Below, one piece after another: positions 19,380 through 29,727 of a DNA stretch of 64,000 nt (within the stretch, counting starts at the first letter, position 1; the number at the start of each line of letters is the position of its first letter). The notes below the pieces were generated by a model, which did no database searches, was not told the origin of the DNA, and was given only the letters and a program-made list of their open reading frames with translations. The stretch spans positions 248,001 through 312,000 of the forward strand of contig NZ_BJYT01000004.1 in NCBI RefSeq assembly GCF_007991655.1. The letters run 5' to 3'. Source of the stretch: Segetibacter aerophilus. Its GTDB lineage: Bacteria; Bacteroidota; Bacteroidia; Chitinophagales; Chitinophagaceae. The position numbers and the translations under genes were made by a program.

Positions 19380-20459
19380 ATGATTATTGCCTTACAAACT
19401 CCTTCCGAAAAGTTGTTCCTGGTTTTTATCGCATTCCTCTTTGCTTCGTGTAGTGTTTTTAAGGGGACGCAAAAGGCGGGTCAAACCTTCACCAACCCTC
19501 TCTTGCCTCGTGGTGCTGATCCGTGGAATATTTATAAAGATGGCTATTACTACTACACCCAGACAATGGGTAACCGGATAGAAATCTGGAAAACAAAAAA
19601 CATTTCAGAGTTAAGTACAGCGCCGCATAAAACTGTTTGGACGCCGCCGAAAGGCACGGCATGGTCAAGAAATTTATGGGCGCCCGAAATTCATTTTATC
19701 GATAACAAGTGGTATGCCTATTTTGCTGCAGACGATGGAAGAAACGTCAATCACCGGCTGTACGTGATAGAAAATAGTTCAAAGGATCCTTTGGAAGGTG
19801 AGTGGACTTTTAAGGGAAAAATTTCTGACAGCACCAACCGATGGGCGATTGACGGTTCTGTGTTCGAGCATAAAAAACAATGGTACATGACCTGGGCAGG
19901 GTGGGAGGCGCATAAGAACGGATCGCAGGATATTTACATCGCCAGGATGTCTAATCCCTGGACGATAGACGGTCCGCGGGTGCGCATTTCTGCACCTACT
20001 TTCGATTGGGAAAAATATGGAGACCTGATAGCAGACTCGGCTTCAGACAATCCACCGCACGTGGATGTGAACGAAGGGCCCGAAATCTTAAAGCACAAAG
20101 ACAAACTTTTTTTGGTGTATTCGGCTAGTGCATGCTGGACAGATTATTACGGGTTGGGGATGCTGACTTTCACAGGGAAGGACGACAACCTACTCGACTC
20201 AGCTTCGTGGAGAAAATCACCCGCTTCGGTCTTTAAACAATCGTCTTTGAACAGTGTGTACGCTCCCGGCCACAATTCTTTTTTCAAATCTCCTAATGGC
20301 AAAGAGGACTGGATTTTGTACCACGCTAATCGTGCTCCCAACATGGGCTGTGGAGGAAACCGATCACCAAGAGCGCAAAAATTTACATGGAACAAAGACG
20401 GCACCCCTAATTTTGGTGAGCCTGTAAAGGAAGGCGTGCCTCTTCGCGTTCCACAATAG
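19380..20459 (+). CDS. glycoside hydrolase family 43 lipoprotein
   Basis: 359-residue GH43 enzyme with a lipoprotein signal ending FLFASC, so it is probably anchored in the outer membrane or periplasm. The GH43 five-bladed propeller triad is visible: base Asp47 in RGADPWNIYKDG, pKa-modulating Asp158 in AIDGSVF, and the acid Glu232 in NEGPEI. The family cleaves arabinan, xylan or side-chain arabinose. The next gene is a second GH43, 29 nt downstream and so likely co-transcribed. No SusC/SusD pair or regulator is adjacent, so this is not a complete polysaccharide utilisation locus. Confidence 0.92.
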   Translation: MIIALQTPSEKLFLVFIAFLFASCSVFKGTQKAGQTFTNPLLPRGADPWNIYKDGYYYYTQTMGNRIEIWKTKNISELSTAPHKTVWTPPKGTAWSRNLWAPEIHFIDNKWYAYFAADDGRNVNHRLYVIENSSKDPLEGEWTFKGKISDSTNRWAIDGSVFEHKKQWYMTWAGWEAHKNGSQDIYIARMSNPWTIDGPRVRISAPTFDWEKYGDLIADSASDNPPHVDVNEGPEILKHKDKLFLVYSASACWTDYYGLGMLTFTGKDDNLLDSASWRKSPASVFKQSSLNSVYAPGHNSFFKSPNGKEDWILYHANRAPNMGCGGNRSPRAQKFTWNKDGTPNFGEPVKEGVPLRVPQ

Positions 20460-20488
20460 TTATAAATTATATAGTAAAACCGCTACCT

Positions 20489-21979
20489 ATGAAAAAAGTA
20501 AAATATTACATGGTATTGCTAACAGCAGCAGTGTTCGCCATGTCGTCTGTATCGTCGCAAAGGCTTATTCTTCCAGGCGATTTTCCTGATCCGTCTATCA
20601 TTAAAATTGGTGATACTTATTGGGCCAGCGCCACTACTTCTAACTGGATGCCCGCTTATCCCATTCTAAAATCTGCTGACATGGTTCATTGGACAACGGA
20701 GGGCTATATCTTCAATAAGTTGCCTGACTGGGCCGACTATTATTTTTGGGCCCCGGAGATAACCTACGAAAACGGGAAGGTGTACGTGTATTATGCTGCG
20801 CACAAGAAGGGCGGAAATTTGTGTCTTGGTATTGCCACGGCTGATAAACCAGAAGGACCGTACAAAGACTTAGGCCCAATGATGTGCGAGGCGGCAGGAT
20901 CTATAGATGCGTTTCCTATGCGTGATGAGAACGGGAAGTTGTACCTGATCTGGAAGGAAGATGGAAACAGTGTAAAGCAACCAACGCCTATTTGGGCAAT
21001 GGAAATGAAGGAAGACAGAACAGGTCTGATTGGTGAAAAACATGAATTATTTAGAAATAAAGTTGCCTGGGAAGAGAACCTCGTAGAGGGAGTGTCGATG
21101 ATGAAGCACGGGGGATACTTTTACGCGTTCTATGCAGCTGCTGGCTGCTGCGGGGTTGGCTGCAACTATATTGTCGGTATTGCCCGGTCAAAGAATCTGT
21201 TAGGTCCATGGGAAAAAGATCCCGCTAACCCGGTTTTAAAAAACAACGAGCAATGGATATGTCCTGGTCATGGTACCCCTATTGAAAAAGATGGCAGGTA
21301 TTACTTCCTGCATCATGCTTATGATAAAAAGACGAACGCATTTACAGGCAGGCAAGGTTTGCTGAGCGAGTTTAGGTTTACGCCGGACGGTTGGGTAAAG
21401 TTTGTAAACGTGCCCGAACCAATTGCTAAGACCGCGCCTATCATCGACGAGTTTACTGATCGTTCGTTATCTGTAAACTGGCAGTGGAGCGTGTTTCAGA
21501 AAGACATCAAATACAAGGTAAAAAAGGGCCAGCTTCAGTTGAACGCAGCCAATGTTTCTGCCGGGGCTTTTCTAGGCCAGAAGATTTATACAGGCGATTT
21601 TACCGCAACAGCTAACTTGGTTAAAAAAGGTTCAAAGTCGGCTGCAGGTATTGCAGCAATTGGAGACGATAAAAATACTTTGAGCCTGCTGTATGTAAAA
21701 GACTCGGTGCAGCTTGTGAAGCTAAAGGACGATACAACAACGGTACTGGCTTCTATGCCCGTAAAGCCAAAGCAACAAGTGAGCTTTAAAATGCAGTCAT
21801 CCGGCGGGCGATATTACACTTTCTCTTTTGCAACTGATGGTGGCGCTTTTACCACCATTAATTCCAAACCTATAGACGGTCTTTTTCTGCCTCCCTGGGA
21901 TAGGGCTGTTCGTGCAGGCCTTGTTTCAAAGGGAAGTGGCAAAGCAAAATTCGAGTCTTTCCAAATGATGAGCGAGTAG
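20489..21979 (+). CDS. glycoside hydrolase family 43, two-domain
   Basis: 496-residue secreted GH43 with signal peptide MKKVKYYMVLLTAAVFAMSS. The triad is Asp34 in DFPDPSII, Asp140 in GSIDAFPM and Glu200 in LVEGVSM. The catalytic domain spans about 25-310, followed by a beta-sandwich domain (about 325-495) of the type often fused to arabinofuranosidases and xylosidases. An unusual CCGVGC cluster sits in the propeller near residue 217. It forms a two-gene unit with the upstream GH43 lipoprotein. The specificity of either enzyme cannot be read from sequence. Confidence 0.93.
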   Translation: MKKVKYYMVLLTAAVFAMSSVSSQRLILPGDFPDPSIIKIGDTYWASATTSNWMPAYPILKSADMVHWTTEGYIFNKLPDWADYYFWAPEITYENGKVYVYYAAHKKGGNLCLGIATADKPEGPYKDLGPMMCEAAGSIDAFPMRDENGKLYLIWKEDGNSVKQPTPIWAMEMKEDRTGLIGEKHELFRNKVAWEENLVEGVSMMKHGGYFYAFYAAAGCCGVGCNYIVGIARSKNLLGPWEKDPANPVLKNNEQWICPGHGTPIEKDGRYYFLHHAYDKKTNAFTGRQGLLSEFRFTPDGWVKFVNVPEPIAKTAPIIDEFTDRSLSVNWQWSVFQKDIKYKVKKGQLQLNAANVSAGAFLGQKIYTGDFTATANLVKKGSKSAAGIAAIGDDKNTLSLLYVKDSVQLVKLKDDTTTVLASMPVKPKQQVSFKMQSSGGRYYTFSFATDGGAFTTINSKPIDGLFLPPWDRAVRAGLVSKGSGKAKFESFQMMSE

Positions 21980-22221: not shown

Positions 22222-23655
22222 ATGAGTTACAATTATTTACCACTCGACAGAAAATGGCTGAGCTTTCAACAGGTAAAAAACCTATTGGATTATGATCAGT
22301 TAGTCTCTATAACTTTCGATGCGCACGAAAGAATATTAAAGAGCCATGAGTACATCCAAAGTATTTCGGTGGGAGAGAATAATGAGGTTTCGTCTACCAA
22401 TATCGAAAATGTACAAAAAGGTGTAATTGAAAGTGATGTAATTGGATCAGGTGAGGAGGTGGCCATCGATATAGTAAAGCTGTTACTCATGCTTAAAATT
22501 AAATCACTCAGCCATGGCCAGAGCGGGGTGCAAATTGAAACTGTGAAGCGGTTGATGGAAATGTATAATAATAGCGTTTTTCCGGTTGTATATGTTGATG
22601 TAGATGGAGCACAAAAAGAAAGCAATCCTTTACTGAGCCAACTACTGATGACATTGGTCGGCAGAGGCGAGGTTTACTACAAAGGACGAAAACAATTGGC
22701 TTCATCTGTTTTCGACGAACTAAACTGGCAGCCCTTAAAATTGCAAACGGGAGAAACGTCTGCGCTAACAACGGGAACGCATTTTATCAGCGCTCATGCT
22801 TTATATGTGTTAAAGAAATCCGAGCTGCTATTAAAATTTGCAGATATAATAGCAGCTGTATCATTGAATGTAATTAGTTTTTCGACCAATAGTTTAAATG
22901 AAAAAATTAACACGGCACAACGTCACAAGGGACAGGCGGATACAGCCAAGGCGCTCAACAAATATTTGAAAGGGAGTGGGAATCTCATAGCAAAAGAGCA
23001 GAAGTCGAATGATGCTGATTTAGCTAACTTAACTATCGGGATTCATGGAGCGGCAAAGGACAGCTTTGAATATATTTTAGATGTTTTTCTAAAAGAGATA
23101 AATTCTGTAACCGAAGAACGATCCATTTTTTCACATGAAGGGTTGGTTGTAAACGGTGTTCATTCTCATCCTCAGCCTTTGATGCTTGCGCTTGATTATC
23201 TCGTTATCGCCCTAACTGGCGTAGCTAACTTATCTGTAGCTAAAATCGAACAGTTAGCGGGCGTCGAAAGCAGTCCATTGTCAGCCGTATTCCTTGCAAA
23301 TATTTTGTCCAGGGCTACCGAAATATCCAGTGAAAACAGAAAACTTTCTGCCCCCTCGTCTGTTAATTTTACGTTAGCAAGTGACATAAAAAGTGGAGTA
23401 GTTTACCAGGTAGATGGCTGTAAGAAATGCTTAAAGGCTGTAGACAACCTTGAAAAGATTCTTGCTATAGAATTGGTGGCTGCAACACGTACCCGGGAAT
23501 TTGAAGGATTAGATCGGACGCTTCCAGCTTTAAACGTTTTCACGAAAAGTTTTAGGGAACAGGTTTCATTGACAGAAGAAGAGGCTGGGGCAAATAACAA
23601 CCTGACAAAAGCAATCCAGTTCTTACGCTCATTTAATGTATCGCTTGTATCATAG
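22222..23655 (+). CDS. histidine ammonia-lyase-fold protein lacking catalytic residues (pseudoenzyme)
   Basis: 477-residue protein aligning end to end with the HAL/PAL superfamily. Recognisable blocks are LKIKSLSHGQSGVQIETVKR (HAL: RANALAKGYSG), TGTHFISAHALYVLKKSELL (HAL: NGTQ-MSA), IGIHGAAKDS (HAL: PQVHGA-RD), SSENRKLSAPSSV and KAVDNLEKILAIELVAATRT. The Ala-Ser-Gly triad that cyclises into the MIO electrophile is gone: at the aligned position (131-133) the protein has QKE. The active-site Tyr of the GVNTGFG loop, the SH histidine (here SD, 71-72), the QD-YS-R block and QEDHVS are also replaced. Lyase activity is therefore not expected. It lies 24 nt before a BadF-type kinase and just upstream of MurQ, which suggests a scaffold or sensing role in amino-sugar recycling (inference). 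Confidence 0.8.
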   Translation: MSYNYLPLDRKWLSFQQVKNLLDYDQLVSITFDAHERILKSHEYIQSISVGENNEVSSTNIENVQKGVIESDVIGSGEEVAIDIVKLLLMLKIKSLSHGQSGVQIETVKRLMEMYNNSVFPVVYVDVDGAQKESNPLLSQLLMTLVGRGEVYYKGRKQLASSVFDELNWQPLKLQTGETSALTTGTHFISAHALYVLKKSELLLKFADIIAAVSLNVISFSTNSLNEKINTAQRHKGQADTAKALNKYLKGSGNLIAKEQKSNDADLANLTIGIHGAAKDSFEYILDVFLKEINSVTEERSIFSHEGLVVNGVHSHPQPLMLALDYLVIALTGVANLSVAKIEQLAGVESSPLSAVFLANILSRATEISSENRKLSAPSSVNFTLASDIKSGVVYQVDGCKKCLKAVDNLEKILAIELVAATRTREFEGLDRTLPALNVFTKSFREQVSLTEEEAGANNNLTKAIQFLRSFNVSLVS

Positions 23656-23679: not shown

Positions 23680-24534
23680 ATGTCTGTTCAATTAATTGCC
23701 GATAGTGGTGCTACCAAATGCGAATGGCATTTAGTGAGTAATGGAATAGAGAAGACAATTTTTACTACCGGTATTAGCCCTTACTTCCTGCAGGAAGAAG
23801 AAATCGTAGAGCTTTTGAAAAAGGACTTGCTGCCGCACCTGGACAATATGGTGGTAAATGAAACTTATTACTATGGGACAGGTCTTGGTAACCCTAAAAA
23901 TGTGGCTACTATAGTCAGCGCTTTGAAGGCACTGCTGCCCCAAAGCAGCGTTGAGGCAAACACAGACTTGTTAGCGGCTGCGCGGGCGTTGTGTGGTAAT
24001 GACAGGGGGATCGCATGCATTCTCGGTACTGGTTCAAATTCCTGTTATTATGACGGCAAGGAGATTGACAAAAATATTGCAAGCCTTGGTTATGTCTTGG
24101 GCGATGAGGGAAGCGGTGCACACCTAGGTAAGAAAGTAATACAATATTACCTCTACAATACTTTTGACGAGGACTTAAGATTTAGGTTCGATGCCCAGTT
24201 CGTAACTACGTACATGGAGATACTTGAGAATGTGTACCAAAAACCCTTTCCTAATCGATACCTCGCGGGTTTTGCCTCTTTCCTTTCTGAAAACCGTGGA
24301 CATTACATGGTTGAAAATATACTGGAAGACGGACTGAACGATTTTTTCTTCAACCACCTAAACAAGTATGGCGAAAGCTGGACCTCACCCATCAACTTTG
24401 TTGGCAGCGTCGCCTTCGGATTTAAAGATGTCTTGCAGGAACTTTGTAACACCTACCAGTTAGAGTTAGGCAAAGTTTTAAAAGCTCCGATGGACGGCTT
24501 GGTAAAATTTCATTCTCAATCTTCATTTGTGTGA
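23680..24534 (+). CDS. BadF/BadG-family amino-sugar kinase (GlcNAc or MurNAc kinase)
   Basis: 284-residue ASKHA kinase. Phosphate-1 motif LIADSGATKCEWHLV starts at residue 5, phosphate-2 ILGTGSNSCYYDG is near 116, and the GDEGSGAHLGKK block follows. The family is usually annotated as N-acetylglucosamine kinase, but characterised members also phosphorylate N-acetylmuramic acid (MurK). MurQ, which uses MurNAc-6-phosphate, is encoded 239 nt downstream, and this favours MurNAc as substrate by context. It is co-directional with the HAL-like gene, with a 24 nt gap. Confidence 0.88.
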   Translation: MSVQLIADSGATKCEWHLVSNGIEKTIFTTGISPYFLQEEEIVELLKKDLLPHLDNMVVNETYYYGTGLGNPKNVATIVSALKALLPQSSVEANTDLLAAARALCGNDRGIACILGTGSNSCYYDGKEIDKNIASLGYVLGDEGSGAHLGKKVIQYYLYNTFDEDLRFRFDAQFVTTYMEILENVYQKPFPNRYLAGFASFLSENRGHYMVENILEDGLNDFFFNHLNKYGESWTSPINFVGSVAFGFKDVLQELCNTYQLELGKVLKAPMDGLVKFHSQSSFV

Positions 24535-24773: not shown

Positions 24774-25589
24774 ATGCCAGATTTTATTAAAGTAACAGAA
24801 CAATCGTCGAAGTACAGGCACCTTGAAAAAATGTCTGTCAAAGAACTTCTAACGAATATAAATAATGAAGACAAAACAGTTCCTGCTGCTGTAGAGAAAG
24901 CCATTCCGCAGATAGAAAAACTGGTAAGCATCATATCTGATCGTATGCTGGCTGGCGGAAGACTTTTCTACCTGGGAGCCGGAACAAGCGGCAGGCTTGC
25001 GATAGTGGATGCAAGTGAATGCCCTCCAACTTTTGGCGTTCCTCATGGATTGGTGATCGCATTAATTGCCGGCAACGAAAAGGCAATAACGCAGGCAGTG
25101 GAATTTGCAGAAGACGACCTGGAGGCAGGTTGGAACGATTTGCAAAAACATTTTGTCAGTGAGAAAGATGTGGTGGTCGGCCTGGCAGCAAGCGGTGCCA
25201 CGCCTTATGTAGTAGGCGCATTGGAACAATGCAAAAAAAATGGCATAAAAACAGGCTGCATTGTTTGTAATCCCAATAGCCCGGTAGCTGCTACTTCAGA
25301 GTTTCCGGTAGAAGTGATTGTGGGGCCAGAGTTTATAACGGGTAGCACCCGGATGAAAAGTGGTACTGCTCAAAAGCTGGTGCTGAACATGATTTCGACA
25401 TCGGTGATGATACAACTTGGCAGGGTAGAGGACAACAGGATGGTGAACATGCAACTGACAAATGCGAAGCTAGTGGACCGGGGTGTAAAGATGGTAATGG
25501 AGCAACTGAACCTTGATGACTACGATAAAGCGAAGCAACTTTTACTACAAAATGGCAGCGTAAAAAAAGCGGTAGAAACGCGGGAATAA
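24774..25589 (+). CDS. murQ: N-acetylmuramic acid 6-phosphate etherase
   Basis: 271-residue SIS-domain etherase that removes D-lactate from MurNAc-6-phosphate to give GlcNAc-6-phosphate in peptidoglycan recycling. Visible are LGAGTSGRLAIVDASECPPT with catalytic Glu82, AVEFAEDD with the second acidic residue near 113, and GSTRMKSGTAQKLVLNMIST. It is a little shorter than E. coli MurQ (about 298) because the C-terminal helical part is reduced, which is common in this phylum. The preceding kinase and HAL-like gene form its functional neighbourhood. Confidence 0.96.
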   Translation: MPDFIKVTEQSSKYRHLEKMSVKELLTNINNEDKTVPAAVEKAIPQIEKLVSIISDRMLAGGRLFYLGAGTSGRLAIVDASECPPTFGVPHGLVIALIAGNEKAITQAVEFAEDDLEAGWNDLQKHFVSEKDVVVGLAASGATPYVVGALEQCKKNGIKTGCIVCNPNSPVAATSEFPVEVIVGPEFITGSTRMKSGTAQKLVLNMISTSVMIQLGRVEDNRMVNMQLTNAKLVDRGVKMVMEQLNLDDYDKAKQLLLQNGSVKKAVETRE

Positions 25590-28680: not shown

Positions 28681-29727
28681 ATGAAGTATTTCAAATTCTA
28701 CAGTAAGCAGGAAATATTATCTATTACCAATACACGTCGGTTTGAAACTAAGTTAGGAGAGCGACTGTTGGTTATTTCAGACCCTAATAAACTGGAAGAG
28801 TCGCTAAAAGAATCCAAAGCCAAGTTTGTAGTTTTTGGTATTCCTGAGGATATAGGAGTCAGGGCGAATTTTGGTGTTGGGGGAACAGGAACAGCATGGC
28901 AGCCTTTCTTATCTTCTTTTGTCAATATTCAAAGCAATGATTTCCTTGAAGGAAGCGAGATAATATTACTTGGAAGGTTTGACTTTACCGAAATAGAAGC
29001 ATTGATAGAAACCAATGCACACAACTTTGAAGAAAAGGTAGATGCTTATCGCCATGCGGTAAATGAAGTAGATGAAGCTGTTGAGCCGTTGGTTAAACTA
29101 ATCACACAGTATAATAAAATTCCCATTGTTATTGGAGGAGGCCACAATAATGCTTACCCTCTCATCAAAGGCGCTGCAAAAGGATTGTACAAATCGGGTC
29201 TCATTCCACTGGCGTCAATAAATTGCATCAACCTCGATGCTCATGCTGATTTCAGGCCTTTAGAAGGTCGACATAGCGGCAATGCTTTTTCATACGCTGA
29301 GGAAGATGGATTTCTGCAGAAGTACTGCGTTATTGGCATTCACGAAAACTACCTAACCCAAAATATCTGGATGGATGTGGTGAATAATCCTTTCATAGAC
29401 TTTATAACTTATGAGGACATTTTTATCCACGAGAAGAAAAATTTTCTGGAAGCAATTGCACACGCCACAACCTTTACAGAAGACAACTACACAGGTATTG
29501 AACTTGATTTAGATTGTATAGAAAATACACTAAGTAGTGCAGCTACACCAAGTGGAGTTGAGCCATTACATGCACGCCAATTTATATCTTACGCTTCTGC
29601 AGATAGCAAGACGGCGTACTTACACATTTGTGAGGGAGCCACGAGACTTTCTGATGGAAGAAGCAGCGAAACTACCGGCAAGCTGATCGCTTATCTTGTA
29701 AGTGATTTTTTAAAGGCAAAAGAGTGA
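28681..29727 (+). CDS. hutG: arginase-family hydrolase, formimidoylglutamase-like
   Basis: 348-residue ureohydrolase. Mn-binding residues are in place: His155 in IGGGHNNAYP, the Asp186-Ala-His188-Ala-Asp190 block in NLDAHADFRPLEGRHSGN, and Asp276 and Asp278 in GIELDLDCIE. The extended N-terminal region and the whole-length pattern match the Bacteroidota formimidoylglutamase group, which acts last in histidine degradation, releasing formamide. No other hut gene is adjacent. Arginase or agmatinase activity therefore remains possible, and the gene symbol is by similarity only. An inverted repeat upstream suggests regulated expression. Confidence 0.82.
   Translation: MKYFKFYSKQEILSITNTRRFETKLGERLLVISDPNKLEESLKESKAKFVVFGIPEDIGVRANFGVGGTGTAWQPFLSSFVNIQSNDFLEGSEIILLGRFDFTEIEALIETNAHNFEEKVDAYRHAVNEVDEAVEPLVKLITQYNKIPIVIGGGHNNAYPLIKGAAKGLYKSGLIPLASINCINLDAHADFRPLEGRHSGNAFSYAEEDGFLQKYCVIGIHENYLTQNIWMDVVNNPFIDFITYEDIFIHEKKNFLEAIAHATTFTEDNYTGIELDLDCIENTLSSAATPSGVEPLHARQFISYASADSKTAYLHICEGATRLSDGRSSETTGKLIAYLVSDFLKAKE

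Follow-up and report, generated by a model that had tools for sequence, protein, structure and literature searches.

Three described systems come closest to the locus reported here: the histidine ammonia-lyase (HAL) HutH, ergothionase, and the murTKQ operon of Tannerella forsythia. Ergothionase lacks the MIO cofactor, according to PMC13405746. The murTKQ operon encodes a MurNAc transporter, a kinase and an etherase, and its MurK serves as the characterised comparison for the kinase found at the present locus (PMC5790795). The protein described in this study is probably a HutH orthologue that has become a pseudoenzyme inside the genus Segetibacter and was retained for a non-catalytic role. No description of such a HutH pseudoenzyme was found in a search of the open-access literature, with subscription papers mostly outside its range, and none was found in PMC9002059 or PMC7653990. 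Copies with an intact active site are called live in the following, and copies that have lost it are called dead.

Identification of the gene and predicted fold

The gene was located at positions 22222-23655 of the forward strand of the window, i.e. the whole 64-kb stretch of DNA from Segetibacter aerophilus that was analysed. It is an uninterrupted open reading frame with an ATG start, encoding 477 amino acids, and was assigned as a HutH-derived pseudoenzyme of the HAL/PAL fold from Pfam and TIGR profiles, comparison of the active site and the predicted fold. The host, a soil bacterium, has a genome of 79 contigs with a listed completeness of 100% (G000), and the window protein was its only Lyase_aromatic match at E 0.001.

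A preliminary description of this DNA had aligned the whole length of the protein with histidine ammonia-lyase and had named a profile search and a structure prediction as checks. The alignment was confirmed by the Lyase_aromatic profile (PF00221), which matched residues 32-444 with E 4.9e-67 and 227 bits at a cut-off of 27.3, placing the protein in this superfamily, and by a sequence search of the PDB, in which chains of P. putida HutH were matched with E 4e-34 to 3e-33. Histidine ammonia-lyases were on top among the solved relatives (best HAL 4.2e-34), with ergothionase further down at E 4.5e-17. The score for the hutH equivalog TIGR01225 was 217 bits, below the cut-off of 539 and outside the equivalog. 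The live Segetibacter copies of G298 and G223 reached 615 and 623 bits, three other dead copies 246-346 bits, and the dead copy of G098 had no TIGR01225 match at E 1e-60. The window protein was closest to HutH of the Chitinophagaceae (36-49% identity), and on these matches it is the HutH orthologue of Segetibacter, a genus of that family.

The AF2 model, calculated from an alignment of 33 sequences, had a pLDDT of 80.9 and a pTM of 0.85. In Foldseek the HALs ranked first with TM 0.85-0.88 (0.86 to the P. putida HAL 1b8f), and ergothionase was found at rank 6 with TM 0.87-0.88. The predicted structure has the HAL fold of the PF00221 superfamily, although the model may have been pulled towards this fold because its alignment is rich in live homologues. 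A control model of the live copy of G298 (L107), made from the same 33 sequences, gave a pLDDT of 84.1 and a pTM of 0.87. Low-confidence stretches in the model of the dead copy were residues 51-74, 128-134, 256-263, 383-391 and 454-456. Low model confidence was considered as a mark of a dead active site, but this idea was weakened by the control, in which pLDDT fell below 50 at residues 1-3, 62-64 (Tyr loop), 142-147 (MIO loop), 373-379 and 406-411 (just before QEDH). The active-site loops of the dead model are set apart from those of the live control by the longer Tyr-loop stretch and by residues 256-263.

Loss of the active site

Corresponding residues were taken from an alignment with P. 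putida HutH and live Chitinophagaceae orthologues, and P. putida numbers follow this alignment; the catalytic roles of the compared residues are assumed to be those generally given for HutH. Only two of the 13 positions followed are unchanged in the window protein, namely Ala in the triad and His in GNFH. It lacks the Tyr loop, and D72 (22435-22437, forward strand) occupies the place of the conserved SH histidine, which corresponds to H83 of P. putida; both changes had been noticed in the preliminary description, as a lost Tyr of the N-terminal loop and an SD in place of SH. The MIO-forming Ala-Ser-Gly was also rightly reported as lost, but its place was given one residue off, as QKE at 131-133. 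The correct residues are A130-Q131-K132 (22609-22617, forward strand), followed by E133 in place of the Asp. At the conserved Asn of INGT the window protein has T184 (22771-22773, forward strand), and each of the five dead copies has either Thr or Ser there. In QDPYSFR the Q, Y and R have become N, D and N, and K390 (23389-23391, forward strand) stands in place of the Glu of QEDH, in agreement with the earlier observation that the QD-YS-R and QEDHVS blocks are altered. The Phe of GNFH is Ser. With Ala-Gln-Lys where HutH of TIGR01225 has Ala-Ser-Gly for MIO, the cofactor would presumably not form in the window protein.

One of the dead copies, that of G267, is intermediate. The Tyr loop, the SH His, the Ser and Gly of the triad, the Asn of INGT, and the Q and Y of QDPYSFR are gone from it, and it retains the Arg of QDPYSFR, the Phe and His of GNFH and the Glu of QEDH.

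The preliminary description had left two readings side by side, a pseudoenzyme or a new activity. Ergothionase provides a precedent within the family for catalysis without MIO, and it is related to the window protein by both sequence (E 4.5e-17) and fold (TM 0.87-0.88). The columns of the A-S-G-D motif, however, read AQKE, TGEN, SQGD, ANTD and NKLS in the five dead copies, with no conserved replacement set. The only uniform change in all five is His155 to Gln (numbering of L019), as the INGT Asn has become either Thr or Ser. Since the five copies carry different residues at the former MIO position, a new MIO-free activity is not supported and appears very improbable. The pseudoenzyme with its fold kept is the part of the earlier statement that is favoured, on the evidence of the sequences.

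Live, dead and absent copies of HutH

A family search of 294 genomes from 101 genera gave a match at E 1e-5 in 258 genomes. From 139 homologue loci, 96 distinct proteins were taken; these are not a random sample, because likeness to the window protein or its relatives (alignment A1) decided which loci were taken. An identical 13-residue active-site string was found in 90 of the 96. Among the other six, the copy of G297 is intact up to the end of its contig and five differ, all of them from Segetibacter. A further 40 loci were drawn from the next 49 rows of the survey, where eight were left out and the ninth was the dead copy of G098; at least two of the 40 were already in the set. The active site was intact in 39 of these, and L197 could be read in its second half only and was intact there. 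Among the homologues examined, no complete one outside the five Segetibacter copies was without the active site. The match to L197 (G239), a homologue from another genus, is interrupted by a stop codon, and this copy is possibly an ordinary pseudogene.

Within the ten genomes of the genus, HutH is live in G223, G298 and G297 (where it is cut by the contig end), dead in G000 (the window), G295, G296, G267 and G098, and no match was found in G172 and G294. The genus thus covers the whole range from live through half-dead and dead copies of one enzyme to its absence, with live and dead copies in the same gene order. Such a set permits tests of what a pseudoenzyme is kept for, and of whether a second role preceded the loss of catalysis. 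Among the relatives with a dead copy, at least three are labelled as metagenome assemblies, which might suggest an error of sequencing or assembly, or a fragment of a pseudogene. This explanation is hardly credible and was rejected, because the dead copies come from five separate assemblies of five species, have open frames of 461-478 codons with no stops, and carry different residues.

Distribution of hutU and hutI

Of the 21 genomes tested, 13 gave both hutU and hutI and the rest gave neither. The 13 are all 11 genomes from other genera together with G223 and G298, the two genomes of the genus with a complete live copy. Neither gene was found in the five dead-copy genomes (88-100% complete) or in G172 and G294, which have no HutH copy. 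Both were likewise not found in G297, although this is weak evidence as the assembly is 71% complete. In the host genome hutU was not detected, hutI gave no match at E 1e-30, and the best partial match for hutI was 37.5 bits (cut-off 298). The pathway context of a TIGR01225 HutH, a urocanase and an imidazolonepropionase in the same genome, was not found there. The distance between hutH and hutU is at most 3 kb in 8 of the 11 genomes from other genera and approximately 257 kb in G223. The death of HutH goes with the absence of hutU and hutI, and not with the neighbourhood of the gene. A practical consequence is that such a gene could be named histidine ammonia-lyase by similarity, despite no hutU or hutI being found in the genome.

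An arginase-family gene at 28681-29727 (forward strand) of the window resembles formimidoylglutamase, with a hutG score of 60.7 bits (cut-off 229). This hutG-like gene is kept in nine of the ten genus genomes and in 10 of the 11 others. It is 96% identical between G000 and G296, though the host genome is without detected hutU and hutI, and it adjoins hutI in G087, G216, G164 and G045.

Constraint on the dead gene

In the three closest pairs of dead copies, dN and dS were 0.48 and 2.52 for G000-G295, 0.46 and 2.38 for G000-G296, and 0.45 and 1.89 for G295-G296, giving apparent ratios of 0.19-0.24 at saturated synonymous sites; the shared four-fold codons of HutH pairs were mostly 1/4 to 2/5 identical, and dS was not computable for most other HutH pairs. 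For the same three pairs, the dN of the neighbouring kinase was 0.12-0.13. The dead HutH thus evolves at roughly four times the rate of the kinase next to it, yet well below the neutral rate, and part of this may date from the live period. Should the copies have died only after the species had separated, the same holds for part of the conservation between copies.

Neutral change was simulated by random substitution in the first 1431 bases of the live gene of G223, with 300 runs at each of three transition biases. Stop-free runs numbered 3/900 at 75% identity and 0/900 at both 60% and 47% identity. Neutral change to 47% identity introduced 11-13 stops on average, and the real dead copies have none. 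The dead gene does not have the look of a neutrally decaying sequence.

Conservation was followed at 213 sites where 90 live sequences show 97% identity or more, with gaps counted as changes. All five dead copies kept 47 of these sites, and 38 were changed in all five. The changes are unevenly spread: 0/45 in residues 1-40 (five copies at nine sites) and 55/65 in residues 41-75 (five copies at 13 sites). In the window protein, 50 of the 61 conserved V/I/L/M/F sites are still hydrophobic (A, C, T, Y and W counted too), which agrees with the earlier remark that the fold-defining hydrophobic helices remain. Identity is kept at 45 of the 113 conserved sites that are not V/I/L/M/F/A/G.

The most conserved stretch is residues 1-41 (22222-22344, forward strand), where the ten pairs formed by the five dead copies are 95% identical and five live copies, of which three are from Segetibacter and two from other genera, are 86% identical. 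In the three live Segetibacter pairs alone, 31, 35 and 34 of the 41 residues are identical. In residues 42-81, identity is only 24% among the dead copies, compared with 73% among the live copies. The abruptness of this change after residue 41 is the study's most striking new result. The same synonymous codons were used in residues 1-41 at 52% in dead and 55% in live copies, compared with 30-49% and 33-46% elsewhere. Since synonymous codons are more alike in residues 1-41, constraint at the nucleotide level near the start may add to the conservation, which would nevertheless be due mostly to selection on the protein. The comparison shows the protein sequence to be still constrained, most of all in residues 1-41 and in the helices around residues 82-117. 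Catalytic residues that are lost in a sequence whose fold-bearing part remains constrained are what is expected of a pseudoenzyme.

The kinase and MurQ neighbourhood

A gene for a MurNAc/GlcNAc-type sugar kinase (23680-24534, forward strand) starts 24 nt past the stop codon of the HAL-like gene and was assigned from its solved relatives. It is similar over its full length to solved MurNAc/GlcNAc kinases, with E 7.6e-65 to 8ow9, 'Putative novel MurNAc kinase', and E 9.8e-56 to 8ow7. It is followed by murQ (24774-25589, forward strand), for an N-acetylmuramic acid 6-phosphate etherase, at 373 bits and a cut-off of 168. The preliminary description had placed the HAL-like gene upstream of murQ and 24 nt before a BadF kinase. 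The 24-nt gap was exact, and murQ does follow. The window kinase does not reach the cut-off of the Pfam BadF model (31.5 bits), and two of its relatives are borderline at 29.2 and 31.5 bits.

The kinase gene lies directly 3' of HutH in all seven genus genomes that have both genes, including the live G223 and G298. The gap is 12 nt in G223, 24 in G000, 40 in G296, 42 in G295, 49 in G267, 63 in G298 and 71 in G098. MurQ is found downstream of the kinase in five of the seven. It was not found within 31 kb at the locus of G267, and in G295 the contig ends. Whether homologues with the same loss of the triad keep this neighbourhood had been raised as a check; the kinase is kept in all five and MurQ in three of five, the other two being G267 and G295. 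A relative of the kinase was present in all 11 genomes tested from other genera, and none was found in 16 HutH neighbourhoods of 17-20 kb from other genera. Since live HutH shares the same kinase and MurQ neighbourhood, the neighbourhood does not explain the loss of the active site. G172 has kept the kinase and MurQ with no HutH match, and no recognisable relic of HutH was found in 20 kb (best tblastn E 0.077), so any role of the protein at this locus is dispensable there. A link to wall recycling rather than to histidine breakdown had been proposed from the gene order; the kinase and MurQ neighbourhood stands, whereas the separation from histidine breakdown does not, as the protein is the genus's own HutH.

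Two GH43-type genes were observed upstream of the dead HutH in G000 (19380-21979), G296 (L168) and G267 (L046), and the pair was not seen in the stretches examined from G098 and G223. In one other genus (G087 L183, G164 L187, G216 L189) the kinase lies about 3-4 kb from hutU, a second case of proximity between hut genes and the kinase. Promoter-like and terminator-like sites near the genes were not above shuffled sequences (within one standard deviation), and PADLOC gave no match.

The main rival explanation is that the dead gene has no function and is protected by its position. As the first gene of a putative transcript with the kinase and MurQ, it would have to stay translatable and not misfold, because stops or aggregation would harm downstream expression. 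HutH stands directly before the kinase in 7/7 genomes with gaps of 12-71 nt, and in the window 242 nt separate it from its upstream gene; the former active site varies from one dead copy to the next, and HutH was not found in two genomes of the genus, one of which (G172) keeps the kinase and MurQ. All of this would suit a protected remnant. A remnant, however, needs only an open and soluble frame, and 47 of the 213 live-conserved sites are kept in all five dead copies. In addition, the dead copies agree more closely with one another than the live copies do in the protein sequence of residues 1-41, while roughly half of the synonymous codons differ. Protection by position without function is consequently regarded as unlikely, and retention of the pseudoenzyme for a non-catalytic role is preferred.

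Number of origins

A species tree was made from rpoB, the kinase and MurQ; it is poorly supported and has many gaps. In constraint tests, a clade of the five dead-copy genomes with G172 and G294 was rejected (p-AU 0.015). The same clade without G294 was not rejected (p-AU 0.063), and the program warned that 5000 replicates were few. The species tree and these tests lean against one single origin. In the HutH gene tree, all dead copies fell on one side of a branch with support of 99, on long branches, and long-branch attraction may explain this grouping. G000, G295 and G296 share derived residues at 6 of 48 jointly changed sites, compared with a mean of 2.1 in shuffles, which reached this number in 2 of 400. 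Trios of two of these genomes with G267 had no excess over the shuffles (reached in 80, 174 and 181 of 400), and trios with G098 had a weak excess in two cases (22 and 33 of 400) and none in the third (191/400). A common start of death is supported most clearly for G000, G295 and G296. The change of His155 to Gln, the only one at a live-conserved site that is the same in all five dead copies, points against separate origins.

Proposed role

The window protein is expected to fold as a HAL-like helical bundle and to work by binding and not by catalysis, possibly as a scaffold or regulator with a contact surface that includes the 41 N-terminal residues. Loss of the hut pathway would have released catalysis from selection, and a second role of the protein would have kept the gene. 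The co-encoded MurNAc/GlcNAc-type kinase is a candidate partner, suggested by gene order. A more far-reaching proposal, which is tentative and which we consider rather doubtful, is that the second, non-catalytic job predates the loss of catalysis. The site would then have died separately in more than one Segetibacter line after the loss of hutU and hutI, with the 41 N-terminal residues and the helical body held fixed, and the protein would bind or regulate the adjacent kinase.

Comparison with known systems

The window protein resembles HutH (TIGR01225; P. putida HAL, PDB 1b8f) as an orthologue by descent, with an alignment over nearly the whole length and a predicted fold at TM 0.86. It differs from HutH in having lost the Ser and Gly of the triad, the Tyr of the Tyr loop, the SH His, the INGT Asn, the Q, Y and R of QDPYSFR, the Phe of GNFH and the Glu of QEDH. 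A further difference is that neither HutU nor HutI was found in its genome. With ergothionase (PDB 6s7j; PMC13405746) it shares the absence of the MIO triad and a HAL fold without the cofactor, a likeness of overall sequence and fold. Ergothionase, however, is an active lyase, whereas the window protein is closest to Chitinophagaceae HutH and has no conserved replacement site. The murTKQ operon of T. forsythia (PMC5790795) likewise has a kinase gene together with murQ; unlike that operon, the Segetibacter window has a dead HutH upstream of the kinase.
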